Source: Luidia sarsii
Taxonomy: Eukaryota > Echinodermata > Asteroidea > Paxillosida > Luidiidae
Assembly: GCA_949987565.1 (NCBI GenBank)
Contig: OX465111.1
Location: 124,001-188,000 of the forward strand
DNA length: 64,000 nt
Reading direction: 5' to 3'
Shown: positions 2,646 through 61,130 of the stretch, one piece after another
How positions within the stretch are numbered: position 1 is the stretch's first letter
Layout of the letters: each line of letters opens with the position of its first letter
The notes under the pieces: generated by a model
Seen by the model: only the letters and a program-made list of their open reading frames with translations
The model's database searches: none
What the model was told of the DNA's origin: nothing
Position numbers and translations under genes: made by a program

Positions 2646-2948
2646 TTGGACGTAGAACCCCACAGTTCTGGGGGTAAGTACACCGTGAGTGTGAGTGCTC
2701 CGGTGCCGGTGAGGCCGGTTGTCGCAACTACTGAACTAGACAAAATCGGCTTCAAAAATCTAGATAAAGCCATGAAATATAAGTCAAAAACTCACATGAA
2801 TGTGCTCCTGGATGGGTACTCAAACAGTAGTGTGGATTATAGCAACATGAGTGAGTTTATTAAGGAGGTAAACATCAAACTGTAGTACTAACGTCGAGTT
2901 CAGCAAAATTGAAAATGGCCGCCTGTCTGATCAAAAACAAACTCAATA
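2646..2948 (+). other. Spacer with an unrecognised 79-codon ORF
   Basis: Single-copy-looking sequence between two tandem arrays. It holds an open frame at 2646-2885 (79 codons) rich in Val, Ser and Lys with no motif I recognise. GGGGGTAAGT near 2670 resembles a splice donor, so part could be an exon. Coding status is unsupported. Confidence 0.2.
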
Positions 2949-3162
2949 GCGCCACCAATAGTTGGGAAGACGTCAGTCAGGCAGACTGTAAGTTGTAAAG
3001 AGCGCCACCAACGGTTGGGAAGTCGTCATCAGGCAGACTGTAAAGTAAAGAGCGCCACCAACGTTTGGGAAGTCGTCATCAGGCAGACTGTTAATTGTAA
3101 AGAGCGCCACCAACGGTTGGGAAGTCGTCATCATGCAGACTGTTAATTGTAAAGAGCGCCAC
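2949..3162. repeat. 52-bp tandem repeat, about 4 copies
   Basis: Units begin GCGCCACCAACGGTTGGGAA and recur at about 2949, 3002, 3052, 3104 and 3156. The last copy is cut short at the edge of the foldback element, so the element inserted at or in this small array. Confidence 0.9.
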
Positions 3163-3170
3163 CAAGAAAG
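3163..3170. repeat. Left target-site duplication of the foldback element
   Basis: CAAGAAAG lies directly outside the left inverted repeat; the identical octamer lies directly outside the right one at 14544-14551. Confidence 0.85.
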
Positions 3171-3440
3171 ACCAAACTGAACCTGGCCCTAAATTTGGGC
3201 CTGAATTTCGGCTGGCCTGCCCGTAAAGCGCTACGGTGTCCCATACATGACACACAATATTTGAATTGAGTTTTTGATAGTTTAAAAATAAAAATAGGAC
3301 AGAAATTTTACTGCAACGTTGTGATAACATGCTTCTATACACAATCAGCTTGAATACTTGTTTTTTTTTAACAAAAACCTATATTTTCCAGAAAAAATGA
3401 ATCTCCAGGATTTGACTTCAAAATAAAACGAATCTGGAAT
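3171..3440 (+). repeat. Left outer inverted repeat of the foldback element
   Basis: It matches 14275-14543 in reverse complement over essentially its whole length, with scattered substitutions and small indels. Shared blocks include CCCTAAATTTGGGCCTGAAT and TGTCCCATACATGACACACA. It passes directly into the first satellite unit. Confidence 0.9.
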
Positions 3441-6400
3441 ACTCCTCTTTTGGAGAAGTGAGTGTACCCTACGCATTCCACTTAAACCTAATAAATTGGA
3501 TATCATCTGAAAGAGTACAAAATTCTACAGAGGATGTAGGCGTTCCCGATTTAATTGATGCAACCGATCATTCAGCCTAACAAATTTAACCTTGACCAAA
3601 ATCCACTTTCGGTCATAATCTCGCTATACGCTAATATGCATTTTGCTGAGAAATCCAAATACTCCTCTTTTGGAAAAGTGAGTGTACCCTACGCATTCCA
3701 TCTAAACCTATAAAATTGGGTATCATCTGAAAGAGTACAAGATTCTACAGAGGATGTAGGCGTTCCCAATTTAATTGTTGCAACCGATCATTCAGCCTAA
3801 CAAATTTAACAATGACCGAAATCAACTTTCGGTCATAATCTCGCTACACGCTAATATACATTTTGCTGAGAGTTCCAAATACTCCTCTTTTGGAAAAGTG
3901 AGTGTACCCTTCGCATTTCACTAAAACCTAATAAATTGGATATCATCTGAAAGAGTACGAAATTCTACAGAGGATGTAGGCGTTCCCGAGTTCATTGGTG
4001 CAACCATACTTTCAGCCTAACAAATTTAACCTTGACCAAAATCCACTTTCGGTCATAATCTCGCTATACGCTAATATGCATTTTGCTGAGAGTTCCAAAT
4101 ACTCCTCTTTTGGAAAAGTGAGTGTACCCTTCGCATTTCACTAAAACCTAATAAATTGGATACCATCTGAAAGAGTACAAAAATCTACAGAGGATGTAGG
4201 CGTTCCCAATTTAATTTTTGCAACCGATTATTCAGCTTAACAAATTTAACCTTGACCAAAATCCACTTTCGGTCATAATCTCGCTGTACGCTAATATACA
4301 TTTTGCTGAGAGTTCCAAATACTCCTCTTTTGGAAAAGTGAGTGTACCCTACGCATTCCACTTAAACCTAATAAATTGGATATCATCTGAAAGAGTACAA
4401 GATTCTACAGAGGATGTAGGCGTTCCCGATTTAATTGATGCAACCAATCATTCAGCCTTACAAATTTAACCTTGACCAAAATCCACTTTCGGTCAGAAAC
4501 TCGCTATACGCTAATATACATTTTGCTGAGAACTAGAAATACTCCTCTTTTGGAAAAGTGAGTGTACCCTACGCATTCCACTTAAACCTATTAAATTGGA
4601 TATCATCTGAAAGAGTACAAGATTCTACAGAGGATGTAGGCGTTCCCGATTTAATTGGTGCAACCATACTTTCAGCCTAACAAATTTAACCTTGACCAAA
4701 ATCCACTTTCGGTCATAATCTCGCTATACGCTATATAATATTATGCATTTTGCTGAGAGTTCCAAATACTCCTCTTTTGGAAAAGTGAGTGTACCCTTCG
4801 CATTTCACTAAAACCTAATAAATTGGATATCATCTGAACGAGTACGAAATTCTACAGAGGATGTAGGCGTTCCCGATTTAATTGATGCAACCGATCATTC
4901 AGCCTAACAAATTTAACCTTGACAAAAATCCACTTTCAGTCATAATCTCGCTATACGCTAATATGCATTTTGCTGAAAGTTCCAAATACTCCTCTTTTGG
5001 AAAAGTGAGTGTACCCTTCGCATTTCACTAAAACCTATTAAATTGGATATCATCTGAAAGAGTACAAAATTCTACAGAGGATGTAGGCGTTCCGAATTTA
5101 ATTGTTGCAACCGATCATTCAGCCTAACAAATTTAACAATGACCGAAATCAACTTTCGGTCATAATCTCGCTACACGCTAATATACATTTTGCTGACAGT
5201 TCCAAATACTCCTCTTTTGGAAAAGTGAGTGTACCCTTCGCATTTCACTAAAACCTATTAAATTGGATATCATCTGAAAGAGTACAAGATTCTACAGAGG
5301 ATGTAGGCGTTCCCGATTTAATTGATGCAACCGATCATTCAGCCTAACAAATTTAACCTTGACCAAAATCCACTTTCGGTCATAATCTCGCTATACGCTA
5401 ATATACATTTTGCTGAGAGGTCCAAATACTCCTCTTTTGGAAAAGTGAGTGTACCCTTCGCATTTCACTAAAACCTAATAAATTGGATATCATCTGAACG
5501 AGTACGAAATTCTACAGAGGCTGTAGGCGTTCCCGAATTCATTGGTGCAACCATACTTTCAGCCTAACAAATTTAACCTTGACCAAAATCCACTTTCGGT
5601 CATAATCTCGCTATACGCTATATAATTATTATGCATTTTGCTGAGAGTTCCAAATACTCCTCTTTTGGAAAAGTGAGTGTACCCTTCGCATTTCACTAAA
5701 ACCTAATAAATTGGATATCATCTGAACGAGTACGAAATTCTACAGAGGATGTAGGCGTTCCCGATTTAATTGATGCAACCGATCATTCAGCCTAACAAAT
5801 TTAACCTTGACAAAAATCCACTTTCAGTCATAATCTCGCTATACGCTAATATGCATTTTGCTGAAAGTTCCAAATACTCCTCTTTTGGAAAAGTGAGTGT
5901 ACCCTTCGCATTTCACTAAAACCTATTAAATTGGATATCATCTGAAAGAGTACAAAATTCTACAGAGGATGTAGGCGTTCCGAATTTAATTGTTGCAACC
6001 GATCATTCAGCCTAACAAATTTAACAATGACCGAAATCAACTTTCGGTCATAATCTCGCTACACGCTAATATACATTTTGCTGAGAATTCTAAATACTCC
6101 TCTTTTGGAAAAGTGAGTGTACCCTTCGCATTTCGCTAAAACCTATTAAATTGGATATCATCTGAAAGAGTACAAAATTCTACAGAGGATGTAGGCGTTC
6201 CCAATTTAATTGTTGCAACCGATCATTCAGCCTAACAAATTTAACAATGACCGAAATCAACTTTCGGTCATAATCTCGCTATACGCTAATATGCATTTTG
6301 CTGAGAACTAGAAATACTCCTCTTTTGGAAAAGTGAGTGTACCCTACGCATTCCACCTAAACCTAATAAATTGGATATCATCTGAAAGAGTACAAAATTC

Positions 6401-6470
6401 TACAGAGGATGTAGGCGTTTCCGAGTTCATTGGTGCAACCATACTTTCAGCCTAACAAATTTAACCTTGA
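3441..6470 (+). repeat. Left arm: 220-bp satellite, about 14 units
   Basis: CAAATTTAAC marks successive units at 3581, 3801, 4021, 4241, 4461, 4681, 4908, 5128, 5348 and 5568, giving a 220-bp period apart from small indels. Each unit carries TACTCCTCTTTTGGAAAAGT and a short hairpin of the form GACCGAAA/TTTCGGTC. Units from 4681 and from 5568 share rare variants (TATATAAT insertion, then GACAAAAATCCACTTTCAGTC in the next unit), indicating an internal duplication of about 887 bp. The roughly 80-codon frames (for example 4218-4469) read once round the unit and stop; they are not convincing genes. Confidence 0.95.
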
Positions 6471-7154
6471 CCATCATCCTTTTAAGATAATACCGGCAGA
6501 AACTTCAGGATACTTCTTCTGTAGAGCTGTATTCAAACCTATACACAACTGGTACCATGTCTGAACGTGTATAAAGTCCAATGAATTCCAGGGTTATAAC
6601 ACAGAGTACATTTTTATGCCTACACCAATATTATTCGGGGCCTTCATTTCACTATATACGGAGAGGGTCTCTGAGATTTGTTAGGATTTGGCGGGTGAAG
6701 TTGAAGAAAAATGACACCTGGACGTCTATCAGACGCCCCCCCCCCCCCCCCTCCATTTCCCTGTTGGTAGCTCGTCTTTGGGATTAAGACGTTGGTGCCT
6801 GCCAATAATTAAGGCGGGTTTGCGGATTCCGTCACAAGCTGTTTATTGCGCAGGGCCTATATATTATTCCTCCATGATTATACCTGCCACGTGTGTTGTT
6901 GGTAGAGCCGTGAGAATAAACAATATATTAGTCAAGTGGGATTATTGTTTGAGAGTGGACCCATGCGGAAACCTTCGACCCATCGGATGAAATTCGCAAG
7001 GTTGTGCGTGTTCAATTGCCTAACAATAAATTCTCTGTAACACAATGCTGATCACACTCCTCTGGCTGTTTGGCTGTTTTTGGATTATTTTTGGGAAAAA
7101 AAGTATAGGCCTAAAATGCCATGAGAAAACATGTTGTCTATTGGTTGACAGATG
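6471..7154. other. Centre of the foldback element
   Basis: Non-satellite sequence between the two opposed arms. The first 110 bases look like a very diverged satellite unit (AAACCTATACACAACTGGTA against AAACCTAATAAATTGGATAT). The rest includes a C tract at about 6737-6751 and short frames (6581-6787, 6778-6990) with no recognisable product. This is where an internal gene would sit, but I see none. Confidence 0.7.
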
Positions 7155-10100
7155 ATATCTAATTTAATAGGTTTAAGTGGAATGCGTAGGGTACACTCAC
7201 TTTTCCAAAAGAGGAGTACATGTATTTCGAACTCTCAGCAAAATGCATATTAGTGTATAGCGAGTTTCTGAACGAGTGGATTTCGGTCATTGTTAAATTT
7301 GTTAGGCTGAATGATCGGTTGCAACAATTAAATTGGGAACGCCTACATCCTCTGTAGAATCTTGTATTCTTTCAGATGATACCCAATTTAATAGGTTTAG
7401 GTGGAATGCGTAGGGTACACTCACTTTTCCAAAAGAGGAGTATTTGGAACTCTCAGCAAAATGCATATTAGCGTATAGCGAGATTTCGACCGAAAGTGGA
7501 TTTTGGTCAAGGTTAAATTTGTTAGGCTGAAAGTATGGTTGCACCAATGAACTCGGGAACGCCTACAGCCTCTGTACAATTTCGTACTCTTTCAGATGAT
7601 ATCCAATTTATTAGGTTTTAGTGAAATGCGAAGGGTACACTCACTTTTCCAAAAGAGGAGTATTTGGAACTCTCAGCAAAATGCATAATATATAGCGTAT
7701 AGCGAGATTATGACCGAAAGTGGATTTCGGTCACTGTTAAATTTGTTAGGCTGAAAGTATGTTTGCACCAATGAACCCGGGAACGCCTACATCCTCTGTA
7801 GAATTTTGTACTCTTTCAGTTGATATCCAATTTATTAGGTTTAGGTGGAATGCGTAGGGTACACTCACTTTTCCAAAAGAGGAGTATTTCTAGTTCTCAG
7901 CAAAATGCATATTAGTGTATAGCGAGTTTCTGAACGAAAGTGGATTTCGGTCATTGTTAAATTTGTTAGGCTGAATGATCGGTTGCATCAATTAAATCGG
8001 GAACGCCTACATCCTCTGTAGAATCTTGTATTCTTTCAGATGATATCCAATTTATTAGGTTTAAGTGGAATGCGTAGGGTACACTCACTTTTCCAAAAGA
8101 GGAGTATTTGGAACTCTCAGCAAAATGTATATTAGCGTATAGCGAGATTATGACCGAAAGTGGATTTTGGTCAAGGTTACATTTGTTAAGCTGAATGATC
8201 GGTTGCAAAAATTAAATTGGGAACGCCTACATCCTCTGTAGATTTTTGTACTCTTTCAGATGATATCCAATTTATTAGGTTTTAGTGAAATGCGAAGGGT
8301 ACACTCACTTTTCCAAAAGAGGAGTATTTGGAACTCTCAGCAAAATGCATAATAGCGTATAGCGAGATTATGACCGAAAGTGGATTTTGGTCAAGGTTAA
8401 ATTTGTTAGGCTGAAAGTATGGTTGCACCAATGAACTCGGGAACGCCTACAGCCTCTATAGAATTTCGTACTCTTTCAGATGATATCCGATTTATTAGGT
8501 TTTAGTGAAATGCGAAGGGTACACTCACTTTTCCAAAAGAGGAGTATTTGGAACTCTCAGCAAAATGTATATTAGCGTGTAGCGAGATTATGACCGAAAG
8601 TTGATTTCGGTCATTGTTAAATTTGTTAGGCTGAATGATCGGTTGCAACAATTAAATTGGGAACGCCTACATCCTCTGTAGAATTTTGTACTCTTTCAGA
8701 TGATATCCAATTTATTAGGTTTTAGTGAAATGCGAAGGGTACACTCACTTTTCCAAAAGAGGAGTATTTGGAACTCTCAGCAAAATGCATAATAGCGTAT
8801 AGCGAGATTATGACCGAAAGTGGATTTTGGTCAAGGTTAAATTTGTTAGGCTGAAAGTATGGTTGCACCAATGAACTCGGGAACGCCTACATCCTCTGTA
8901 GAATTTTGTACTCTTTCAGATGATATCCCATTTATTAGGTTTTAGTGAAATGCGAAGGGTACACTCACTTTTCCAAAAGAGGAGTATTTGGAACTCTCAG
9001 CAAAATGTATATTAGCGTGTAGCGAGATTATGACCGAAAGTTGATTTCGGTCATTGTTAAATTTGTTAGGCTGAATGATCGGTTGCAACAATTAAATTGG
9101 GAACGCCTACATCCTCTGTAGAATTTTGTACTCTTTCAGATGATATCCAATTTATTAGGTTTTAGTGAAATGCGAAGGGTACACTCACTTTTCCAAAAGA
9201 GGAGTATTTGGAACTCTCAGCAAAATGTATATTAGCGTGTAGCGAGATTATGACCGAAAGTGGATTTTGGTCAAGGTTAAATTTGTTAGGCTGAATGATC
9301 GGTTGCATCAATTAAATCGGGAACGCCTACATCCTCTGTAGAATTTTGTACTCTTTCAGATGATATCCAATTTATTAGGTTTAAGTGGAATGCGTAGGGT
9401 ACACTCACTTTTCCAAAAGAGGAGTATTTGGAACTCTCAGCAAAATGTATATTAGCGTATAGCGAGATTATGACCGAAAGTGGATTTCGGTCACTGTTAA
9501 ATTTGTTAGGCTGAAAGTATGGTTGCACCAATGAACCCGGGAACGCCTACATCCTCTGTAGAATTTTGTACTCTTTCAGTTGATATCCAATTTATTAGGT
9601 TTAGGTGGAATGCGTAGGGTACACTCACTTTTCCAAAAGAGGAGTATTTCTAGTTCTCAGCAAAATGAATATTAGCGTATAGCGAGTTTCTGACCGAAAG
9701 TGGATTTTGGTCATTGTTAAATTTGTTAGGCTGAATGATCGGTTGCAACAATTAAATTGGGAACGCCTACATCCTCTGTAGAATTTTGTACTCTTTCAGA
9801 TGATATCCAATTTTTTTAGGTTTTAGTGAAATGCGAAGGGTACACTCACTTTTCCAAAAGAGGAGTATTTGGAACTCTCAGCAAAATGTATATTAGCGTA
9901 TAGCGAGATTATGACCGAAAGTGGATTTCGGTCACTGTTAAATTTGTTAGGCTGAAAGTATGGTTGCACCAATGAACCCGAGAACGCCTACATCCTCTGT
10001 AGAATTTTGTACTCTTTCAGTTGATATCCAATTTATTAGGTTTAGGTGGAATGCGTAGGGTACACTCACTTTTCCAAAAGAGGAGTATTTCTAGTTCTCA

Positions 10101-13100
10101 GCAAAATGCATATTAGTGTATAGCGAGTTTCTGAACGAAAGTGGATTTCGGTCATTGTTAAATTTGTTAGGCTGAATGATCGGTTGCATCAATTAAATCG
10201 GGAACGCCTACATCCTCTGTAGAATCTTGTATTCTTTCAGATGATATCCAATTTATTAGGTTTAAGTGGAATGCGTAGGGTACACTCACTTTTCCAAAAG
10301 AGGAGTATTTGGAACTCTCAGCAAAATGTATATTAGCGTATAGCGAGATTATGACCGAAAGTGGATTTTGGTCAAGGTTAAATTTGTTAGGCTGAATGAT
10401 CGGTTGCATCAATTAAATCGGGAACGCCTACATCCTCTGTAGAATCTTGTACTCTTTCAGATGATATCCAATTTAATAGGTTTTAGTGAAATGCGAAGGG
10501 TACACTCACTTTTCCAAAAGAGGAGTATTTGGAACTGTCAGCAAAATGTATATTAGCGTGTAGCGAGATTATGACCGAAAGTTGATTTCGGTCATTGTTA
10601 AATTTGTTAGGCTGAATGATCGGTTGCAACAATTAAATTCGGAACGCCTACATCCTCTGTAGAATTTTGTACTCTTTCAGATGATATCCAATTTAATAGG
10701 TTTTAGTGAAATGCGAAGGGTACACTCACTTTTCCAAAAGAGGAGTATTTGGAACTTTCAGCAAAATGCATATTAGCGTATAGCGAGATTATGACTGAAA
10801 GTGGATTTTTGTCAAGGTTAAATTTGTTAGGCTGAATGATCGGTTGCATCAATTAAATCGGGAACGCCTACATCCTCTGTAGAATTTCGTACTCGTTCAG
10901 ATGATATCCAATTTATTAGGTTTTAGTGAAATGCGAAGGGTACACTCACTTTTCCAAAAGAGGAGTATTTGGAACTCTCAGCAAAATGCATAATATTATA
11001 TAGCGTATAGCGAGATTATGACCGAAAGTGGATTTTGGTCAAGGTTAAATTTGTTAGGCTGAAAGTATGGTTGCACCAATTAAATCGGGAACGCCTACAT
11101 CCTCTGTAGAATCTTGTACTCTTTCAGATGATATCCAATTTAATAGGTTTAAGTGGAATGCGTAGGGTACACTCACTTTTCCAAAAGAGGAGTATTTCTA
11201 GTTCTCAGCAAAATGTATATTAGCGTATAGCGAGTTTCTGACCGAAAGTGGATTTTGGTCAAGGTTAAATTTGTAAGGCTGAATGATTGGTTGCATCAAT
11301 TAAATCGGGAACGCCTACATCCTCTGTAGAATCTTGTACTCTTTCAGATGATATCCAATTTATTAGGTTTAAGTGGAATGCGTAGGGTACACTCACTTTT
11401 CCAAAAGAGGAGTATTTGGAACTCTCAGCAAAATGTATATTAGCGTACAGCGAGATTATGACCGAAAGTGGATTTTGGTCAAGGTTAAATTTGTTAAGCT
11501 GAATAATCGGTTGCAAAAATTAAATTGGGAACGCCTACATCCTCTGTAGATTTTTGTACTCTTTCAGATGGTATCCAATTTATTAGGTTTTAGTGAAATG
11601 CGAAGGGTACACTCACTTTTCCAAAAGAGGAGTATTTGGAACTCTCAGCAAAATGCATATTAGCGTATAGCGAGATTATGACCGAAAGTGGATTTTGGTC
11701 AAGGTTAAATTTGTTAGGCTGAAAGTATGGTTGCACCAATGAACTCGGGAACGCCTACATCCTCTGTAGAATTTCGTACTCTTTCAGATGATATCCAATT
11801 TATTAGGTTTTAGTGAAATGCGAAGGGTACACTCACTTTTCCAAAAGAGGAGTATTTGGAACTCTCAGCAAAATGTATATTAGCGTGTAGCGAGATTATG
11901 ACCGAAAGTTGATTTCGGTCATTGTTAAATTTGTTAGGCTGAATGATCGGTTGCAACAATTAAATTGGGAACGCCTACATCCTCTGTAGAATCTTGTACT
12001 CTTTCAGATGATACCCAATTTTATAGGTTTAGATGGAATGCGTAGGGTACACTCACTTTTCCAAAAGAGGAGTATTTGGATTTCTCAGCAAAATGCATAT
12101 TAGCGTATAGCGAGATTATGACCGAAAGTGGATTTTGGTCAAGGTTAAATTTGTTAGGCTGAATGATCGGTTGCATCAATTAAATCGGGAACGCCTACAT
12201 CCTCTGTAGAATCTTGTACTCTTTCAGATGATATCCAATTTATTAGGTTTAAGTGGAATGCGTAGGGTACACTCACTTTTCCAAAAGAGGAGTATTTGGA
12301 ACTCTCAGCAAAATGTATATTAGCGTATAGCGAGATTATGACCGAAAGTGGATTTCGGTCACTGTTAAATTTGTTAGGCTGAAAGTATGGTTGCACCAAT
12401 GAACCCGGGAACGCCTACAGCCTCTGTAGAATTTCGTACTCTTTCAGTTGATATCCAATTTATTAGGTTTAGGTGGAATGCGTAGGGTACACTCACTTTT
12501 CCAAAAGAGGAGTATTTCTAGTTCTCAGCAAAATGCATATTAGCGTATAGCGAGTTTCTGACCGAAAGTGGATTTTGGTCAAGGTTAAATTTGTTAGGCT
12601 GAATGATCGGTTGCATCAATTAAATCGGGAACGCCTACATCCTCTGTAGAATCTTGTATTCTTTCAGATGATATCCAATTTATTAGGTTTAAGTGGAATG
12701 CGTAGGGTACACTCACTTTTCCAAAAGAGGAGTATTTGGAACTCTCAGCAAAATGTATATTAGCGTATAGCGAGATTATGACCGAAAGTGGATTTTGGTC
12801 AAGGTTACATTTGTTAAGCTGAATGATCGGTTGCAAAAATTAAATTGGGAACGCCTACATCCTCTGTAGATTTTTGTACTCTTTCAGATGATATCCAATT
12901 TATTAGGTTTTAGTGAAATGCGAAGGGTACACTCACTTTTCCAAAAGAGGAGTATTTGGAACTCTCAGCAAAATGTATAATAGCGTATAGCGAGATTATG
13001 ACCGAAAGTGGATTTTGGTCAAGGTTAAATTTGTTAGGCTGAAAGTATGGTTGCACCAATGAACTCGGGAACGCCTACAGCCTCTGTAGAATTTCGTACT

Positions 13101-14274
13101 CTTTCAGATGATATCCCATTTATTAGGTTTTAGTGAAATGCGAAGGGTACACTCACTTTTCCAAAAGAGGAGTATTTGGAACTCTCAGCAAAATGTATAT
13201 TAGCGTGTAGCGAGATTATGACCGAAAGTTGATTTCGGTCATTGTTAAATTTGTTAGGCTGAATGATCGGTTGCAACAATTAAATTGGGAACGCCTACAT
13301 CCTCTGTAGAATTTTGTACTCTTTCAGATGATATCCAATTTATTAGGTTTTAGTGAAATGCGAAGGGTACACTCACTTTTCCAAAAGAGGAGTATTTGGA
13401 ACTCTCAGCAAAATGTATATTAGCGTATAGCGAGATTATGACCGAAAGTGGATTTTGGTCAAGGTTAAATTTGTTAGGCTGAATGATCGGTTGCATCAAT
13501 TAAATCGGGAACGCCTACATCCTCTGTAGAATTTCGTACTCTTTCAGATGATATCCAATTTATTAGGTTTTAGTGAAATGCGAAGGGTACACTCACTTTT
13601 CCAAAAGAGGAGTATTTGGAACTCTCAGCAAAATGCATAATAGCGTATAGCGAGATTATGACCGAAAGTGGATTTTGGTCAAGGTTAAATTTGTTAGGCT
13701 GAAAGTATGGTTGCACCAATGAACTCGGGAACGCCTACAGCCTCTGTAGAATTTCGTACTCGTTCAGATGATATCCAATTTATTAGGTTTTAGTGAAATG
13801 CGAAGGGTACACTCACTTTTCCAAAAGAGGAGTATTTGGAACTCTCAGCAAAATGTATATTAGCGTGTAGCGAGATTATGACCGAAAGTGGATTTCGGTC
13901 ACTGTTAAATTTGTTAGGCTGAAAGTATGGTTGCACCAATGAACCCGGGAACGCCTACAGCCTCTGTAGAATTTCGTACTCTTTCAGTTGATATCCAATT
14001 TATTAGGTTTAGGTGGAATGCGTAGGGTACACTCACTTTTCCAAAAGAGGAGTATTTCTAGTTCTCAGCAAAATGCATATTAGCGTATAGCGAGATTTCG
14101 ACCGAAAGTTGATTTTGGTCATTGTTAAATTTGTTAGGCTGAATGATCGGTTGCATCAATTAAATCGGGAACGCCTACATCCTCTGCAGAATCTTGTACT
14201 CTTTCAGATGATATGCAATTTATTAGGTTCAGGTGGAATGCGTAGGGTACACTCACTTTTCCAAAAGAGGAGTA
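7155..14274 (-). repeat. Right arm: 220-bp satellite, about 32 units, inverted
   Basis: The same 220-bp unit as the left arm, in reverse complement, continuing to about 14274 and more than twice as long. Variants occur in mirror order relative to the left arm: for example GACAGTTCC at about 5195 pairs with GGAACTGTC at about 10532, and GAGAAATCC at about 3650 pairs with GGATTTCTC at about 12077. Repeated blocks inside the arm (about 7966-8460 against 12594-13090) show further internal duplication. Minus-strand frames of 80-83 codons recur at unit spacing and are satellite translations. Confidence 0.95.
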
Positions 14275-14543
14275 TTCCAGATTCGTTTTATTTTGAAGTC
14301 AAATCCTGGATATAAATTTTTTCTGGAAAATATTGGTTTTTGGAAAGAAAAACCAAGTATTCAAGCTGATTGTGTATAGAATCATGTTATCACAACGTTG
14401 CAGTACAATTTCTCTCTTATTTTTATTTTTAATCTATCAAAAACTCAAGTCAAATATTGTGTGTCATGTATGGGACACCGTAGCGCTTCACGGGCAGGCC
14501 AGCCGAAATTCAGGCCCAAATTTAGGGCCAGGTTCAGTTTGGT
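14275..14543 (-). repeat. Right outer inverted repeat of the foldback element
   Basis: Reverse complement of 3171-3440, ending GGTTCAGTTTGGT immediately before the target duplication. A plus-strand frame at 14333-14563 is the mirror of a minus frame at 3091-3342 in the left repeat; both are incidental. Confidence 0.9.
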
Positions 14544-14551
14544 CAAGAAAG
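14544..14551. repeat. Right target-site duplication of the foldback element
   Basis: CAAGAAAG, identical to 3163-3170. The pre-insertion site would read through the 52-bp array directly into GGCAGTGAATAG. Confidence 0.85.
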
Positions 14552-32175: not shown

Positions 32176-32260
32176 TACTCGACGTTTCAAACAGCATACA
32201 CTGTTCGTCTTCAGGAGACGAACAGAGTAACAGTTCAAAACGTCAAGTTCCTCCGGTTCT
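32176..32260 (-). repeat. Dispersed hairpin repeat, ribozyme-like
   Basis: On the minus strand: CTGTTCGTCTC, then CTGAAGACGAACAG, a six-base loop, CTGTTTGAAACGTC. The CTGAAGA and GAAAC motifs flank a 7-bp stem as in a hammerhead ribozyme core, but with an extra unpaired base. Such motifs are known from Penelope-like elements. No element body is present here. Confidence 0.4.
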
Positions 32261-33149
32261 TTTCAGAACCACACATACTCACAAGAGAGAATTGTACATG
32301 GTATCACCTAAAACCTATTACTCATGTGATTTAACCTGCTTCATCAACTGTGAAATTACTTTGAAAATCAGAGTTCAAATGATTGTCAAGGGTCTGTGAC
32401 AGTCACTCCATTTGATTTGTGGAAGTTGTTTGTGCAGGTTTTTCAGCGTGGACTATCCACAAAAGACCAGAAGTGTTTCTGAGATGATAAGCAATTTTCA
32501 GAGAGATGCTTCATGAACGATGTATATGACTGGGCTGTAAGGTTCTTAATTTGGTTGCGTAAACTTTTCTATTTTAGTGCACACTCCACAGACAATCACT
32601 GTTTGGATTTCTGTTTTGTGCCTTGAAAGAATGACGTTTTCATTTACTCAGAATAACAAATTCATGGGTAATCCAAAGGTTTTGTCTTTTATCATTCTGC
32701 TTAGCTATTTACTGCAAGTAAGAATTCTTTAAATGTATCTCCAGCATCATTATGTTCTGGCCAAAAGCAGGTGTCCCAAGGGGTTCTATAAAGAGTGTCA
32801 CAGAGGATGTTCCAATCAACCTTGTTGTATTGATAGATATACCGGGTAACAGATTCAGCTTTGTGACAGCCGAGGATACATGAGACACCATTGTCATAAC
32901 TAGATCCTATACATGGTTGAATACATACTGTACTTTACATTAGTAAACAAGTGGAGTCTGTTTGTAAAAATAAGAAGAATTAATGAGCCCTGATTGATAG
33001 CTGAATGTTGATAGCTGAGTTTCAACATTTACTAATGGTTGAAGATCAAGGACATCTGAAGCAGCATGTAAAGACTGTACATTTTAGAAGCAAAGAAATG
33101 ACAGAAAGTTGCTGACTGGCGTAAATGACAAAACTGTGCAAACCTCTGA

Positions 33150-34168: not shown

Positions 34169-37100
34169 CTGCAGGATATGTGGAAAAGAATATCATTCAA
34201 ATATCAAAATTCTATTATACTATTAGTTTATGATGTGGTTTAATCACATAGAAGTGTGAAGGCACGTCCCTCTGCAGCAAGGGGGCAAGCTCTCCCTCTC
34301 TCTGGGCATGCTGCAGACTGCCGTAGACTGCCACAGAGGCACGTCCCTCTGCAGCAAGGGGGCAAGCTCTCCCTCTCTCTGGGCATGCTGCAAACTGCCG
34401 TAGACTGCCACAGAGGCACGTCCCTCTGCAGCAAGGGGGCAAGCTCTCCCTCTCTCTGGGCATGCTGCAGACTGCCGTAGACTGCCACAGAGGCACGTCC
34501 CTCTGCAGCAAGGGGGCAAGCTCTCCCTCTCTCTGGGCATGCTGCAGACTGCCGTAGACTGCCACAGAGGCAGGTCCCTGAGCAGCAAGGGGGCAAGCTC
34601 TCCCTCTCTCTGGGCATGCTGCAGACTGCCGTAGACTGCCACAGAGGCACGTCCCTCTGCAGCAAGGGGGCACGCTCTCCCTCTCTCTGGGCATGCTGCA
34701 GACTGCCGTAGACTGCCACAGAGGCAGGTCCCTGAGCAGCAAGGGGGCAAGCTCTCCCTCTCTCTGGGCATGCTGCGGACTGCCGTAGACTGCCACAGAG
34801 GCAGGTCCCTCTGCAGCAAGGGGGCAAGCTCTCCCTCTCTCTGGGCATGCTGCAGACTGCCGTAGACTGCCACAGAGGCACGTCCCTCTGCAGCAAGGGG
34901 GCAAGCTTTCCCTCTCTCTGGGCATGCTGCAAACTGCCGTAGACTGCCACAGAGGCACGTCCCTCTGCAGCAAGGGGGCAAGCTCTCCCTCTCTCTGGGC
35001 ATGCTGCAGACTGCCGTAGACTGCCACAGAGGCACGTCCCTCTGCAGCAAGGGGGCAAGCTCTCCCTCTCTCTGGGCATGCTGCAGACTGCCGTAGACTG
35101 CCACAGAGGCAGGTCCCTCTGCAGCAAGGGGGTAAGCTCTCCCTCTCTCTGGGCATGCTGCAGACTGCCGTAGACTGCCACAGAGGCACGTCCCTCTGCA
35201 GCAAGGGGGCAAGCTCTCCCTCTCTCTGGGCATGCTGCAGACTGCCGTAGACTGCCACAGAGGCAGGTCCCTCTGCAGCAAGGGGGCAAGCTCTCCCTCT
35301 CTCTGGGCATGCTGCAGACTGCCGTAGACTGCCACAGAGGCAGGTCCCTGAGCAGCAAGGGGGCAAGCTCTCCCTCTCTCTGGGCATGCTGCAGACTGCC
35401 GTAGACTGCCACAGAGGCACGTCCCTCTGCAGCAAGGGGGCAAGCTCTCCCTCTCTCTGGGCATGCTGCAGACTGCCGTAGACTGCCACAGAGGCACGTC
35501 CCTCTGCAGCAAGGGGGCAAGCTCTCCCTCTCTCTGGGCATGCTGCAGACTGCCGTAGACTGCCACAGAGGCACGTCCCTCTGCAGCAAGGGGGCAAGCT
35601 CTCCCTCTCTCTGGGCATGCTGCAGACTGCCGTAGACTGCCACAGAGGCAGGTCCCTGAGCAGCAAGGGGGCAAGCTCTCCCTCTCTCTGGGCATGCTGC
35701 AGACTGCCGTAGACTGCCACAGAGGCACGTCCCTCTGCAGCAAGGGGGCACGCTCTCCCTCTCTCTGGGCATGCTGCAGACTGCCGTAGACTGCCACAGA
35801 GGCAGGTCCCTGAGCAGCAAGGGGGCAAGCTCTCCCTCTCTCTGGGCATGCTGCAGACTGCCGTAGACTGCCACAGAGGCAGGTCCCTCTGCAGCAAGGG
35901 GGCAAGCTCTCCCTCTCTCTGGGCATGCTGCAGACTGCCGTAGACTGCCACAGAGGCACGTCCCTCTGCAGCAAGGGAGCAAGCTCTCCCTCTCTCTGGG
36001 CATGCTGCAGACTGCCGTAGACTGCCACAGAGGCAGGTCCCTCTGCAGCAAGGGGGCAAGCTCTCCCTCTCTCTGGGCATGCTGCAGACTGCCGTAGACT
36101 GCCACAGAGGCACGTCCCTCTGCAGCAAGGGGGCAAGCTCTCCCTCTCTCTGGGCATGCTGCAGACTGCCGTAGACTGCCACAGAGGCACGTCCCTCTGC
36201 AGCAAGAGGGCAAGCTCTCCCTCTCTCTGGGCATGCTGCAGACTGCCGTAGACTGCCACAGAGGCACGTCCCTCTGCAGCAAGAGGGCAAGCTCTCCCTC
36301 TCTCTGGGCATGCTGCAGACTGCCGTAGACTGCCACAGAGGCACGTCCCTCTGCAGCAAGGGGGCAAGCTCTCCCTCTCTCTGGGCATGCTGCAGACTGC
36401 CGTAGACTGCCACAGAGGCAGGTCCCTCTGCAGCAAGGGGGCAAGCTCTACCTCTCTCTGGGCATGCTGCAGACTGCCGTAGACTGCCACAGAGGCAGGT
36501 CCCTGAGCAGCAAGGGGGCAAGCTCTCCCTCTCTCTGGGCATGCTGCAGACTGCCGTAGACTGCCACAGAGGCACGTCCCTCTGCAGCAAGGGGGCAAGC
36601 TCTCCCTCTCTCTGGGCATGCTGCAGACTGCCGTAGACTGCCACAGAGGCAGGTCCCTCTGCAGCAAGGGGGCAAGCTCTCCCTCTCTCTGGGCATGCTG
36701 CAGACTGCCGTAGACTGCCACAGAGGCAGGTCCCTCTGCAGCAAGGGGGCAAGCTCTCCCTCTCTCTGGGCATGCTGCAGACTGCCGTAGACTGCCACAG
36801 AGGCAGGTCCCTGAGCAGCAAGGGGGCAAGCTCTCCCTCTCTCTGGGCATGCTGCAGACTGCCGTAGACTGCCACAGAGGCAGGTCCCTCTGCAGCAAGG
36901 GGGCAAGCTCTCCCTCTCTCTGGGCATGCTGCAGACTGCCGTAGACTGCCACAGAGGCAGGTCCCTCTGCAGCAAGGGGGCACGCTCTCCCTCTCTCTGG
37001 GCATGCTGCAGACTGCCGTAGACTGCCACAGAGGCAGGTCCCTCTGCAGCAAGAGGGCAAGCTCTCCCTCTCTCTGGGCATGCTGCAGACGGCCGTAGAC

Positions 37101-40100
37101 TGCCACAGAGGCACGTCCCTCTGCAGCAAGGGGGCAAGCTCTCCCTCTCTCTGGGCATGCTGCAGACTGCCGTAGACTGCCACAGAGGCAGGTCCCTCTG
37201 CAGCAAGGGGGCAAGCTCTCCCTCTCTCTGGGCATGCTGCAGACTGCCGTAGACTGCCACAGAGGCAGGTCCCTCTGCAGCAAGGGGGTAAGCTCTCCCT
37301 CTCTCTGGGCATGCTGCAGACTGCCGTAGACTGCCACAGAGGCACGTCCCTCTGCAGCAAGGGGGCAAGCTCTCCCTCTCTCTGGGCATGCTGCAGACTG
37401 CCGTAGACTGCCACAGAGGCAGGTCCCTCTGCAGCAAGGGGGCAAGCTCTCCCTCTCTCTGGGCATTCTGCAGACTGCCGTAGACTGCCACAGAGGCAGG
37501 TCCCTCTGCAGCAAGGGGGCAAGCTCTCCCTCTCTCTGGGCATGCTGCAGACTGCCGTAGACTGCCACAGAGGCAGGTCCCTCTGCAGCAAGGGGGCACG
37601 CTCTCCCTCTCTCTGGGCATGCTGCAGACTGCCGTAGACTGCCACAGAGGCAGGTCCCTCTGCAGCAAGGGGGCAAGCTCTCCCTCTCTCTGGGCATGCT
37701 GCAGACTGCCGCAGACTGCCACAGAGGCAGGTCCCTGAGCAGCAAGGGGGCAAGCTCTCCCTCTCTCTGGGCATGCTGCAGACTGCCGTAGACTGCCACA
37801 GAGGCACGTCCCTCTGCAGCAAGGGGGCAAGCTCTCCCTCTCTCTGGGCATGCTGCAGACTGCCGCAGACTGCCACAGAGGCAGGTCCCTGAGCAGCAAG
37901 GGGGCAAGCTCTCCCTCTCTCTGGGCATGCTGCAGACTGCCGTAGACTGCCACAGAGGCACGTCCCTCTGCAGCAAGGGGGCAAGCTCTCCCTCTCTCTG
38001 GGCATGCTGCAGACTGCCGTAGACTGCCACAGAGGCAGGTCCCTCTGCAGCAAGGGAGCAAGCTCTCCCTCTCTCTGGGCATGCTGCAGACTGCCGTAGA
38101 CTGCCACAGAGGCAGGTCCCTGAGCAGCAAGGGGGCAAGCTCTCCCTCTCTCTGGGCATGCTGCAGACTGCCGTAGACTGCCACAGAGGCAGGTCCCTCT
38201 GCAGCAAGGGGGCAAGCTCTCCCTCTCTCTGGACATGCTGCAGACTGCCGTAGACTGCCACAGAGGCAGGTCCCTGAGCAGCTAGTAGGGACAAGTCCGT
38301 TTGGAAGGAAATATACCGTCCTAGTACTGGCATGTGGTCTAGGCTAGATTCACTCACTAGGGGAATCAGACACTTGACCGATCACAGGTATACCTCATCC
38401 AACAACTAACAAAGCAATACACGAGGGAACCAGTGTTACGTGAATCAAAGCAGGATGTGTTTCATTTCAATCAACACACTTCAACAAGAGAGGGCGCTGT
38501 AGCAACGGATAGCAACCCGAAAAAAGACTACAGGTACATGTACATTGTATATACCAGCATCATCACAGCCAAGCAACACACTATGGGTCTAGTGCAGCAC
38601 CAGGAGACCAGGGTTGGATTTCACAAAGCCTTACAGTGCATGGTGACTCAACTTACGATGGATAACCAATCGTACATGTAAGTTGTGATACTAGGCCATT
38701 ATGGTTCCTGTGCATTGCTCATCTTTTGATAGATTGCAAGTCACAATTGATCTGATGACATCAACCACAGACCCACAACCAGCCTATATAGGGATGCAGC
38801 CCCACACCACTAACAAGGTGCAGGTTACAGCCACAAGCCCCAGCCTCTACGTACGATGCACCACACGGTTATAGCCCTTACACCCCTAGCTAGCACACAA
38901 ACCTCGCAATATGCCAGCACACGCACCAACAAGACATTTGACAGCAACGTACCAGCGCCACGGCCCCTAAGCTCAAAGAACACAGGTCTGCTCAGCTCAC
39001 AGGAGACAGATATCAGGGGCTTTGCCCCCTTGCAACTAATGCTGCAAGGGCCACAGCAGGGAACCCCTACCTCAACTGACCGCACCACACAGGCCCCTCA
39101 GAGGGTCCTATACTGTCTCTGTGCAAACTGTACGGCCCTACTACCAACAAGTGAGGAGTAGTGAGAGTGCAAACCCACCAGGAAGGTCTGCCCGGTGCAG
39201 CCAAAGAAAAGGTCCAACCTGTCCATGGGCTAGCGATACTCACCTTATATAGCCATTGCAGAGCCTCATGCCTGCGCGCTACGTGGGGAGAGCAGTGACC
39301 TGTCTATCCAATCAGCAAGCACTGGGCGGAGCCTAATGCTATGTGACCTATGCTCACTGGTTGTAAGCAATTCCATAAGAGATCTATGTGAATACCTAAA
39401 GCAACATTTCCACTGGACATACTTTGGTCAAAGTAACCAAGACAATGTTTACTCATGTAAAGTCCTGTGGAAACGGACCAGTAAACTTTTCTCTTGGTTA
39501 CTTTCTCCATTGAGCTATAGGTATTACATGTGTAGTTCCATGATTTCACCGAACCCAATGCAATGGTTACAGAACTTTTACCAGCCAACCTCTACCCAGT
39601 AAAAGTGCCCAGGGAAGTTTCACAGAGCATATTAGTCCAGTAGAAATGAACCACTCAGTGAAACTCAACTAGGTACTAAAAATGTGCGGTAATTTTGGGA
39701 ATATAAGCCGAAGCTTAGGCCTATGCGTTCATTTTGGCCAAAAAATGTTACTGAAGCTTATGAGCCAGCCTTGAAGAATAAAATTGATGTGTGTACAGGT
39801 TAATGACCAGAAAAAATAATTAAAATTAATGAAATATCAATTACTACCCAAGGCAAGATATTAACAAAACCGGCACTCCAATAAAACATTGCCCCAAATG
39901 GTAGTCAATTGTACTAGTTCACTTCCTTTTACTGCATACATTCTACACACTAATGCACGGCTGAATACGCAGGTATGGTAGGAAATGATAAGTGCCTTTG
40001 GTACGAAACGAGCAACTACCACCTTGCTGATACTTTGTACATGTACATGATGTGTGAACAGCATCTGCTTACTTCTTTCACACAACCGTACATTGACCAA

Positions 40101-43100
40101 CATCCTTTTCCTATTCCAGAAGTTGTTTTCATATTGGTCACGTGCAACGCCCTCATACATTATATTGCCAGCTCCCTTATTTCAAAGGGGAATGCAACCC
40201 AAGAAATAAAGTTAGCTTATCTGATTGGGTGTTAAAACAACCTACAATTACCTATTAGTCACTCACGTACGTCTTTCATAAAGAGAGAAAATTCATGGCA
40301 TTGTAGGCCGAATTTGCATTCCTGTACATAGAAATCTTTTCAAAAAAGCCGCTGCTGATTGCGTGAATGTGATGTGACGACGGATATCTGCGGTATGACT
40401 ATGAGTATTGAGGTGCCCGGATGTGCCCCCTACTGCGTGCAGTGTGTGTACACTCGCGAGCTAAACGATGGTGTACTACCAGGCTTTTGGCTGTAAAAAT
40501 GCCAGCGGGAAAAAGCTGGAAAACACTTTCCATGCAATACCCAACAGAGCAAGAAACCTGAGTTATCTAGGAAGTGGGCCGCAGCCATCAAAGTGGAGAA
40601 ATTTCTCAAAATTGGCTACCAATACTCAATAGAAATCAAAAGGATGTGAATGTGATTTGTACTGTAGCGATCACTTCACCTCCAAGCTTCACCGAGGAGG
40701 ATTGGGAGGAGGACTTGCGGGCCGAACTCACCAGCTCAAAGCAGAGAAAGGATACTAAAAGAACATGCTGTTCCTTCTCTATATTCCACATCGACCAGCG
40801 GTGGCAACACGTGAATCGACAGCTTCAAGAATTTCCAAATTGTTTTCGTTTCAGTCCCTGCGTGAATGTTTACTTATTCTCCCATGCACGTGCATGTGAG
40901 ATCCTTCTCGGTGAAGACCAGATGGAGTTCAGAAATGAAACTCACACAGAATTTTCGTCTAGATACCAGGAACATTGAGTGGGTAGTTTTGGAGAAATCA
41001 TTGGCAAATCCCTTGGTGACTGAATGGCAAACACAAGGCGTGTATGCAGCTAGCTGCACGCAATGCACGTATTGTGATTGTCATCCAGTCACTGATTTCT
41101 CTGAAACTACCCACTCAACGTTCCGACAAAAAAGATATTTTGTTGCTGGTATCTAGGCAAAAATTCCGTGAGTTTCATTTCTGAACTCCATCTGGTTTTT
41201 GAGAAAAAAAGTCACGAACTTACGTGCTTCGCCATAGATTTGTGTGATAAAAATAAGGCCAGTTTGTCATCTTTTCTATACCCATGATGCTTTGCGAACG
41301 TTTGAAAGGTTTATTGATCAATGGGACGCGGTTGCCGTCATTCCGTCGTGACATCACACCTCCAGCAAACAGCGGCGGCACCTTCAAAAAGATGGCTACG
41401 TACCGGAACGCAAATTTGACCTACAATTCCATGAATTTTCTCTCTTTAGGAAAATCGTACGTGAGTGTCTCATAGCTACATGTAATTATAGGTTGTTTTT
41501 AACACCCAATCAGATAAGCAAACTTTATTTCTTGGGTTGTATTCCCCTTTAACCATCATGTTGGTCAAACTGACCGACTCAAAAAGTGTGAACGACAGCC
41601 AGATTTGACCATTGACATTTAACCATAGATCATCTTAGTTAAATTTGAGTCCAGTGGAAATATGGCTTTAAAAGAAGCTATAAGTATTAACCATTAACTC
41701 TTTTTCCAGGGATTGCACCCTTTTCAGCAGATGGTAAACATAAGTACAATTGGTTGTGAAACAGACTGGAATCTCAGAGATCAAGCAAAATGTGATTCTA
41801 CAGAAACAGAAACGTGTTGCAAACTGCTTTCTCATAAAAATAGCAAAACAAACCTTTAAAAAATAGGTTTCATTTCTTCTAATAATAATAAAGATAGCCC
41901 AAAGAACAATTTGGGAGGATATTAATTTGTAAGAAAAGGGTTTTGACTGGTCTGTGACAACGCACCTGTATTCTATGGTATGCAGTATCTGCCACAAGCA
42001 CCTTGCCATCAGGTGTCACAGCCAGGTCACATGGGTTGCACAGCTTCCCTGGCTCCTCATCCCGGCCTCCAAATCGACGACATTCCTGACCACTCTGATC
42101 AAAGACACGGATGAGATGGTTGTCCCCATCACATACAAACACCTCCCCTTCCTTGTTGCTGGCCAGTCCCCAAGGATCAAAGCCATACTCCAGGGGAGGT
42201 AGACATGTGTTGAAGCTACTCTCCAGTCTGCCTGCTGGTGTAACAACGTGCACAGTCTTCATACCAGGATCACTGATGCAGAGTTTACCATTTGGAGTCA
42301 CACACATTCCTGTTAAACAAATCACATGAAATACAGCTAGCACTGAAAGCTGCTTGGAAAAACAGAAAGAAACTCAGGTAGCGGTGGCTCAGGCGGGCTT
42401 CAAACGATGACTCCTACTTTACTTGGCTTAACCACTTGGCCACCAAGTTGGTCAAGGTCATGTGATGGATTGAAATTGAAAGGAGACAGTTGCGATAGTC
42501 AGTCCCGGGTATTATGTGTACACATGATTCAGTGTCTGTGACTAAGAGTCAGATGTTTTTTCTCTGATGAAATCCCCCACAAGTCTAACTCACTGGGATG
42601 CATCTCAAATTCTCCAAACAGAGAAATTGGAGGATTAATGCTTGTTAAGGTTTTTGACTGCTTTAAATCCGTTTTCCAATAAAAAAAAAAAATGTAAAGC
42701 CACTTCCAGAAAACACAAACAAGGGGAAATAAAGTCAAGCAAACATGTATCCAACTGCTTGATGACTAACATGACCTGAAGGGACCAAAGCTTAGAGGGT
42801 TGGGTGTTTCAATCCTAGCAGGACTTTTCTGAAGGTAGAAACAACATCAGCAGGTGGAGAGCTCACCTGTTATTCCTTGAGATGACATTGGTCTCTTCTG
42901 AGATGGCAGGGCAATAACTCTATTGGTATTCAGCTCAGAATCACAGACTCTGATTTGGGTGCTGTTGTATGAACCAATAGCAATGTAACCGTTAGGAAGC
43001 TGAGCTGCACAGAATGGACAATTGAGGTCGGTGCCTTGCCTGCTGCCAAAGGTACGCATTGCCTTGGTCTTGGCAAGGTAATGTGTAGTCATTGCTGTAA

Positions 43101-59116: not shown

Positions 59117-59190
59117 ACTAGGGCACTGACCACAATAAACAGTATTGTTGTTGTCTCGCCCCAGCCCATCTGTTGTAAATTGAATGGCAC

Positions 59191-60200
59191 AGCGCCGCAC
59201 AGCGCCGTACAGGGCCGCACAGGGCCGCACAGCGCCGTACAGGGCCGCACAGGGCCGCACAGGGCCGCACAGCGCCGCACATCGCCGCACAGGGCCGCAC
59301 AGGGCCGCACAGGGCCGCAAAGCGCCGCACAGGGCCGCACAGCGCCGCACAGCGCCGCACAGCGCCGCACAGGGCCGCACAGGGCCGCACAGGGCCGCAC
59401 AGCGCCGCACAGGGCCGCACAGGGCCGCACAGGGCCGCACAGGGCCGCACAGCGCCGCACAGCGCCGCACAGCGCCGCACAGGGCCGCACAGCGCCGCAC
59501 AGGGCCGCACAGCGCCGCACAGGGCCGCACAGGGCCGCACAGGGCCGCACAGGGCCGCACAGGGCCGCACAGGGCCGCACAGCGCCGCACATCGCCGCAC
59601 AGGGCCGCACAGCGCCGCACAGGGCCGCACAGGGCCGCACAGGGCCGCACAGGGCCGCACAGGGCCGCACAGGGCCGCACATGGCCGCACAGGGCCGCAC
59701 AGGGCCGCACAGCGCCGCACAGCGCCGCACAGGGCCGCACAGCGCCGCACAGGGCCGCACAGCGCCGCACAGCGCCGCACAGGGCCGCACAGGGCCGCAC
59801 AGGGCCGCACAGGGCCGCACAGGGCCGCACAGGGCCGCACAGGGCCGCACAGGGCCGCACAGGGCCGCACAGGGCCGCACAGGGCCGCACAGCGCCGCAC
59901 AGGGCCGCACAGGGCCGCACAGGGCCGCACAGCGCCGCACAGGGCCGCACAGGGCCGCACAGGGCCGCACAGGGCCGCACAGGGCCGCACAGGGCCGCAC
60001 AGGGCCGCACAGGGCCGCACAGGGCCGCACAGGGCCGCACAGGGCCGCACAGGGCCGCACAGGGCCGCACAGGGCCGCACAGGGCCGCACAGGGCCGCAC
60101 AGCGCCGCACAGGGCCGCACAGGGCCGCACAGGGCCGCACAGGGCCGCACAGGGCCGCACAGGGCCGCACAGGGCCGCACAGCGCCGCACAGGGCCGCAC
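59191..60200. repeat. 10-bp minisatellite, 101 units in perfect register
   Basis: The unit is AGGGCCGCAC, with AGCGCCGCAC as the main variant and rare ATGGCCGCAC, ATCGCCGCAC, AGCGCCGTAC and AGCGCCGCAA-like changes. The block is exactly 1010 bp without an indel. Five long frames on both strands (351-372 codons) are translations of the repeat. The AGC variant is frequent in the left half and rare in the right half. Confidence 0.97.
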
Positions 60201-61130
60201 ATACAGATATGGCCAGGATGTGCAAGTCAGCCTGACGGCTAAAATATGTGAAAATAGATCCCCAGAAAAAATACTCTCAATAGCCTACATGTTTTGTAAA
60301 GATGGATTTGTAAGCAGCTAGGTCCACCCTAAACGAGAATATTATTATTGTTTATACAGTAGCACCCCTCTCATGCCTAATGGAATTGTCCATGCTGTCA
60401 AGGAATCGTAATGTGGGCCGTGCCAAAAATTGCCCGTCAAAAATGTGAGAATAACTTGAAAAACGATCACGTACTAGCCTACCTGCAAAAAGGAATAAAG
60501 AGTGCAACATTTGTGTGCTGTCGTGCAGTAAGTAGTGCTCGTTTTGCTGTCTGGCTTTCTCCTTTTGGGGCCTGGTTAAAGGCACCCGCAATCGAAAGCG
60601 CAAACTTTTGACAGCTCGATGTATGATTCTACTTTCACACGCAACCCAACCACGTGTTATTGCGCAATCTATATATCGTGCAACGTAAATCGCTCCCAAT
60701 TACCGTTGGTATACTCGTTGTTTGGTAACGCTAGCGCTGTCCAAGATTCACTGGTACCCACAGACGAAAAGTTCGTTGACATGAAAAAATGTCCTGCACG
60801 TGCTGCAGGGGCTGCATTGAAACGGGGCAACACATCAACAAGTACCATCTGCCACAGGCCGGAGACTGATTGCAGTAACAGTTACTGTACATGTACAGTA
60901 GTTGTACAACTTCCATGTAAACTGTCTTGTAAGTTGTATATAGTTGTAGCACAGAGCAACGTGTCCTTGCTCTATGCTTGCACCTACTCTACATCATAGT
61001 ATACAGCCTATATGTACATGTACATGTACAATAGGTGCGTGGTCCTGGTGCGTCAGGCGCTCGACTTTCAGTCTTATCTACCGTCAACGATCAAGCTCAC
61101 TAAATTTGTCTTTCCTCCCTCTGGTTTAGA
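60201..61130. other. Spacer upstream of the SLC6 gene
   Basis: Nothing recognised apart from TGTACATGTACA palindromes (60887-60900, 61015-61030). The SLC6 promoter may lie here or to 62.1 kb, but I cannot locate it. Confidence 0.45.

Follow-up and report, generated by a model that had tools for sequence, protein, structure and literature searches.

A foldback transposon family with satellite-like arms and a candidate transposase in the genome of Luidia sarsii

A stretch of 64,000 nucleotides from Luidia sarsii (assembly GCA_949987565.1, contig OX465111.1, positions 124,001 to 188,000; the whole stretch is called the window below) was analysed and found to carry a foldback transposon whose arms are built of a 220-bp satellite-like unit. 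Copies with the same ends were found elsewhere in the genome, and most of the end pairs that we checked were transposed copies. In our judgement the window element is probably a non-autonomous DNA transposon of a Rehavkus-like family, for which the transposase would come from a long coding member and whose arms would be turning over fast. A candidate transposase frame, large satellite-like arms and young copies are thereby found together in one family of one genome. The copies are young enough to set array change against point mutation, which would allow the growth and spread of a satellite to be measured.

The window element and its relatives in the genome

The body of the element occupies window positions 3171-14543 and is bordered on each side by the 8-bp sequence CAAGAAAG (3163-3170 and 14544-14551), a perfect target-site duplication that occurs in the window at positions 3163 and 14544 only. 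At its ends are outer inverted repeats of 267 bp, at 3171-3437 on the plus strand and 14277-14543 on the minus strand, which are 94.4% identical when one is inverted. The first letters of the left repeat, ACCAAACTGAACC, and their complement at 14531-14543 each occur once in the window. Inside these repeats, Tandem Repeats Finder and a profile search delimited two arrays of the 220-bp unit on opposite strands: a left arm of 13.7 copies (3438-6473, plus strand) and a right arm of 32.3 copies (7149-14276, minus strand), with 91-92% matches by Tandem Repeats Finder. The outer repeats and the unit had matches of 9-11 nt only. The arms enclose a non-coding centre of 675 bp (6474-7148). No stop-to-stop frame of at least 100 aa overlapped the element, and the longest of the 16 overlapping frames of at least 60 aa had 95 aa. 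An earlier note, made from the letters of the sequence, had described a complete foldback transposon of about 11.4 kb at 3163-14551, with a perfect 8-bp flanking duplication, outer inverted repeats of about 270 bp, opposed 220-bp arrays of about 14 and 32 copies and a short non-coding centre; our measurements bore out each part of this description. A 52-bp tandem repeat at 2948-3165 ends inside the left target duplication.

The genome (471 Mb, 227 contigs) was searched with the first 42 nt of the element end, allowing up to three mismatches. There were 213 matches, and the reversed pattern, used as a control, gave none. From the matches listed, 34 convergent end pairs were picked by proximity and their flanks compared. 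A perfect duplication was present in 20 pairs (9 bp in 19 of them and 8 bp in the window element) and a near one in two pairs, with 7/9 and 8/9 bases matching; the remaining 12 had none. Among 1122 mismatched combinations of left and right ends, none had a perfect duplication of at least 8 bp and three passed the near-match rule. The excess in both comparisons (213 against 0 end matches, and 20/34 against 0/1122 duplications) indicates that the pattern seen in the window is not due to chance. Further copies with matching termini and duplications, for which the earlier note had proposed looking, thus exist. The 20 perfect duplications all differ from each other and the 60-bp flanks of these pairs share matches of 14-19 nt only, so most of the checked pairs are transposed copies and a minority are rearranged. 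The 19 nine-base targets showed a weak bias: 11 of them have C at position 3, and nine have G at position 7.

When 1.5 kb on each side of the 30 best-matching of the 213 ends was examined, 220-bp units were present on the inner side at 27 end loci, and the outer side was free of them at 29; the remaining locus, L011, lies beside a further set of units. Several loci departed from the simple structure. At L057 (C19:4793245-4808248) each flank is an inverted copy of the other and there is no direct duplication, which probably reflects an inverted duplication of the element together with its flank. L057 also holds an insertion that we read from its frames as Gypsy-like, and L048 one read in the same way as BEL/Pao-like; neither name comes from a family search. 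L071 and L083 each have two copies of the 13-bp terminus at one of their ends, and a target duplication was not found for either. L078, L079 and L080 have flanking sequence in common.

The coding member and the origin of the window element

We found a copy with a long candidate frame at C15:333644-371139, which answers the suggestion in the earlier note that an autonomous relative with a transposase be sought. This copy is 37.5 kb long and has a perfect 9-bp duplication, CATCTTGAA. Each of the five sample points from 333.9 to 347.1 kb had plus-strand units, and those at 368.0 and 369.8 kb had minus-strand ones; there were none at 361.0 or 365.0 kb. Between the opposed arrays, on the minus strand, lies a single open frame of 1726 codons (C15:350829-356006). 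It contains a PHD finger (PF00628, E 1.9e-7), a UCH domain (E 5.6e-26) and a Peptidase_C48 (Ulp1-like) domain (E 2e-8). Residues D640, D720, a C-x2-H motif at 761 and E977, picked by eye in alignment A1, resemble a DDE core; the C-x2-H pattern and the core spacing are those which we take to be of the Mutator-like (MULE) type. The likely catalytic residues of the two protease domains, Cys1116 and His1342 for UCH and His1587, Asp1604 and Cys1668 for C48, are present, given the residues that we presume such domains to show. It is unusual for one frame to combine a D-D-E-like core with UCH-like and Ulp1-like domains.

Relatives of the core were found in other organisms. Two ENA proteins had 44-47% identity and two cichlid-fish proteins, which carry PHD and Macro domains, 30-31%, followed by proteins from a rotifer (26%) and a whitefly (25%). 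A profile search brought in a further ENA protein and, from a loach, a protein that has a PHD domain. From its composition and position, the 1726-codon frame looks like the transposase of the family, and we treat it as a candidate.

The inner sequence of the coding member covers the whole 675-bp centre of the window element. The segment C15:365072-365599 was 97.8% identical to window 6468-7003 over 536 columns, and C15:347354-347771, on the inner flank of the left array, was 96.5% identical, inverted, to window 6722-7149; together the two segments span the entire centre. Because of this coverage we read the window element as a putative internal-deletion derivative of a member of this kind, which would be its simplest origin. 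The centre of another copy, L055, has 1,536 bp in common with the coding member at 98%.

Arm turnover, proposed mechanism and alternatives

Two types of unit were distinguished by pairwise identity. Window-type units, found in the window element and L055, had a mean identity of 92%, and second-type units, found in eight copies, one of 94%; the mean between the types was 77%. Two clean clades were not recovered in a midpoint-rooted tree of 409 units, and the pairwise identities were used in its place. Units of both types occur in L047 and L057, and a few second-type units in L055. Seven second-type copies share their centre, which is about 1.17 kb long and has 96.6-100% identity among them, and this centre matches the coding member in patches at 73-88%. 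A tRNA-like stretch noticed by eye in the second-type centre (L049, 7531-7598) was not called by ARAGORN, run with the bacterial code on five loci.

The arms differ far more than the centres. The 1,171-bp centres of L040, L044 and L051 are identical, and these copies gave 12+1, 13+18 and 37+17 unit hits, respectively. When units were labelled and written as strings, arms shared their outer and inner ends, and blocks between these had been gained or lost. Arms vary in length and unit composition among copies, and they contain many distinguishable units.

The longest exact match between the two arms of one element was in the window element. An exact-match search found a 1,898-bp block of its left arm (3522-5419, plus strand) to be identical, in inverted orientation, to a block of its right arm (10315-12212, minus strand), with a shift of about nine units; the units of the two arms average 93% identity. 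In eight other elements the longest exact block between left and right arm was 118-427 bp, and the longest left-to-right match between different elements was 588 bp. The 1,898-bp block would represent recent copying from arm to arm, for which gene conversion of the palindrome type is probably the simplest route.

A further copy, at C4:18175715-18213155, is 37.4 kb long and has a perfect 9-bp duplication. A 10-kb stretch of it consisted of 220-bp units throughout, first on the plus and then on the minus strand, without a separate centre, and units were present at five out of five further sample points. This copy may be almost pure satellite, since satellite was found at every place sampled, with about 26 kb unread.

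These observations can be joined in a mechanism that we consider probable as a whole. The transposase of the long coding member would recognise the conserved outer ends, and the element would move by cut-and-paste, with catalysis by the D-D-E-like core, leaving a duplication of 9 bp (8 bp in the window element). The 220-bp arms would travel with the element and would turn over quickly, as blocks are gained or lost inside one arm and copied from one arm to the other. Such copying may proceed through pairing of the inverted arms, as a hairpin or by palindrome-type gene conversion. The protease domains might help the transposon in its host. A bolder version, which we hold only tentatively and think rather less likely to be right than wrong, is that the family makes satellite: self-paired arms would copy blocks, and the element would build up its satellite much more quickly than it mutates, until some copies of about 37 kb are satellite almost throughout; these would be carried to new sites by a transposase fused to deubiquitinase-like and deSUMOylase-like domains, which could counter chromatin silencing of the arrays.

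Several observations count against the proposed mechanism. The catalytic reading of the core builds on residues picked by eye, and no Pfam family was matched to that core, the MULE domain PF10551 included, in residues 1-887, where D640 and D720 lie (E up to 10), or in residues 889-1726, where E977 lies (E up to 1). The start of the frame is unsettled, and its early sequence may include an intron or be frame-shifted. Coding copies number one, read in part. By tblastn the frame was not found elsewhere in 16 paired copies searched in full, five short ones, the end loci and the samples, a weak negative given that few copies were read through. A predicted structure of one relative (P0001) had a mean predicted local distance difference test score of 37.7 and was too poor for use. 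Arm-to-arm identity on the scale of 1,898 bp is so far a feature of one copy, the window element. In five of the eight other copies (L042, L044, L045, L049 and L055) the longest match of the left arm was to the right arm of another element, and in L051 the longest matches to its own arm and to another element were nearly equal. Finally, 12 of the 34 end pairs have no duplication.

The strongest rival explanation is that an ordinary MULE transposase encoded elsewhere moves the family, the 1726-codon frame being a gene that was captured or is nested. The genome holds 27 PF10551 matches, several with long open frames; one of them, C15:10050069, is 24.8 kb from a family end at C15:10025240, on its inner side. 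MULE-type transposases also commonly give 9-bp duplications (PMC3169594). Nevertheless, the copy that contains the frame has a perfect duplication and its opposed arms enclose the frame, and the non-coding sequence that flanks the frame on both sides is also present in copies without it. Its aligned D, D, C-x2-H and E are as in a DDE transposase and it has relatives in other animals, and a PHD finger, a 9-bp duplication and tandem repeats next to the terminal repeat are the combination in print for Rehavkus (PMC6446971). We therefore regard a MULE transposase from elsewhere as improbable. Six PF10551 matches of equal score at C12:10767055-10798641, on one strand and spaced by about 6.25 kb, look like tandem MULE genes or elements.

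Multiplication of the copies chiefly through segmental or inverted duplication of host regions, and not through transposition, would account for the inverted flanks without direct duplication at L057, the common flanks of L078, L079 and L080, and the pairs without duplication. It is hard to reconcile with the 20 of 34 pairs whose duplications are perfect and whose flanks match over such short lengths, and we consider it very improbable. Least credible of all is that faulty assembly of a satellite region produced the inverted arrays: opposed near-identical arrays are hard to assemble, and ours were observed in the assembly and not in reads, yet perfect duplications lie at 20 sites with dissimilar flanks, and arms of many distinguishable units differ in length and composition from copy to copy. 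Transposition of a Rehavkus-like family by the product of its coding member thus remains the explanation that we prefer.

Other features of the window lie outside the element. Positions 1-2643 hold a 16-bp tandem array of about 158 copies, beginning at the first base; another short array of 16-bp units follows, and its consensus contains the complement of the sequence of the first unit. The sole Rfam match in the window was a histone 3' untranslated region stem-loop at 32250-32295, above the gathering score. A 77-bp tandem array at 34260-38282 has 52 copies with 97% matches, and several minus-strand frames are open in it. Exon-like frames on the minus strand at 41879-45128 resemble a host gene of the RING-plus-NHL (TRIM-like) kind, a label that is our reading. 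At 59187-60201 is an array of about 100 copies of the 10-bp unit GCACAGGGCC, with several frames open on both strands.

Comparison with known foldback and Rehavkus elements

The family has the structure of foldback elements, namely long inverted repeats with tandem repeats around a centre, and a target-site duplication. Foldback anatomy and tandem repeats in the arms are shared with Tm1, FB and Galileo. Tm1 of root-knot nematodes has mostly 9-bp duplications, units of 13-15 bp and a FLYWCH/MULE transposase, and Galileo of Drosophila has a P-element transposase (PMC3169594).

Tetris of Drosophila virilis is a non-coding foldback with tandem repeats of about 220 bp (TIR-220) in its inverted repeats and duplications of 8-10 bp (PMC4079207). 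Its repeats have been linked to satellite arrays, so that it is a precedent both for a satellite-armed foldback and for the release of satellite (PMC4079207). Tetris is described with three copies of complete structure, and a transposase was not found for it, whereas here there are 20 pairs with perfect duplications and a coding member. A sharing of 37 bp is reported there (PMC4079207), compared with 9-11 nt between outer repeats and unit in our family. Four published primers for TIR-220 and TIR-FD, compared with the window element and L049, had 6-9 mismatches at best, about as many as shuffled primers. The equal length of about 220 bp looks coincidental.

Rehavkus elements, described from arthropods and annelids, have a PHD finger, duplications of 9 bp and terminal repeats that measure 26-400 bp, with a minisatellite ahead of the 3' one (PMC6446971). 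Here a 9-bp duplication was present in 19 of 34 pairs, with 8 bp in the window element itself. A PHD finger (PF00628, E 1.9e-7) is encoded in the 1726-codon frame, and the terminal repeats are 267 bp long. Arrays are found at both ends of our elements, whereas the printed minisatellite is at the 3' end only. Rehavkus-1_TC of Tribolium carries a 164-bp satellite, TCsat23, in its inverted termini (PMC10218199); the copy numbers of TCsat23 are given as "mostly five and eight", compared with tens of 220-bp units per arm here. Our family also differs in having copies of up to 37.5 kb, and in the UCH and Ulp1-like domains of its frame, to which the cited Rehavkus passages do not refer. Judged by printed features alone, the anatomy fits the Rehavkus group; the relatives of the core carry no Rehavkus name.

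A search of an open-licence library found no paper that joins transposase, UCH, Ulp1 and PHD. The earlier note had inferred that satellite carried as transposon arms gives a route for its dispersal. This holds for arrays borne by elements and is shown for those only, and the idea itself has printed precedents. Satellite-armed foldbacks are already in print as Tetris and Rehavkus-1_TC, and the kind is therefore known. What is new in Luidia sarsii is the scale, including a copy of 37.4 kb in which every sampled place was satellite, the protease-bearing frame and the 1,898-bp block common to both arms of one element.

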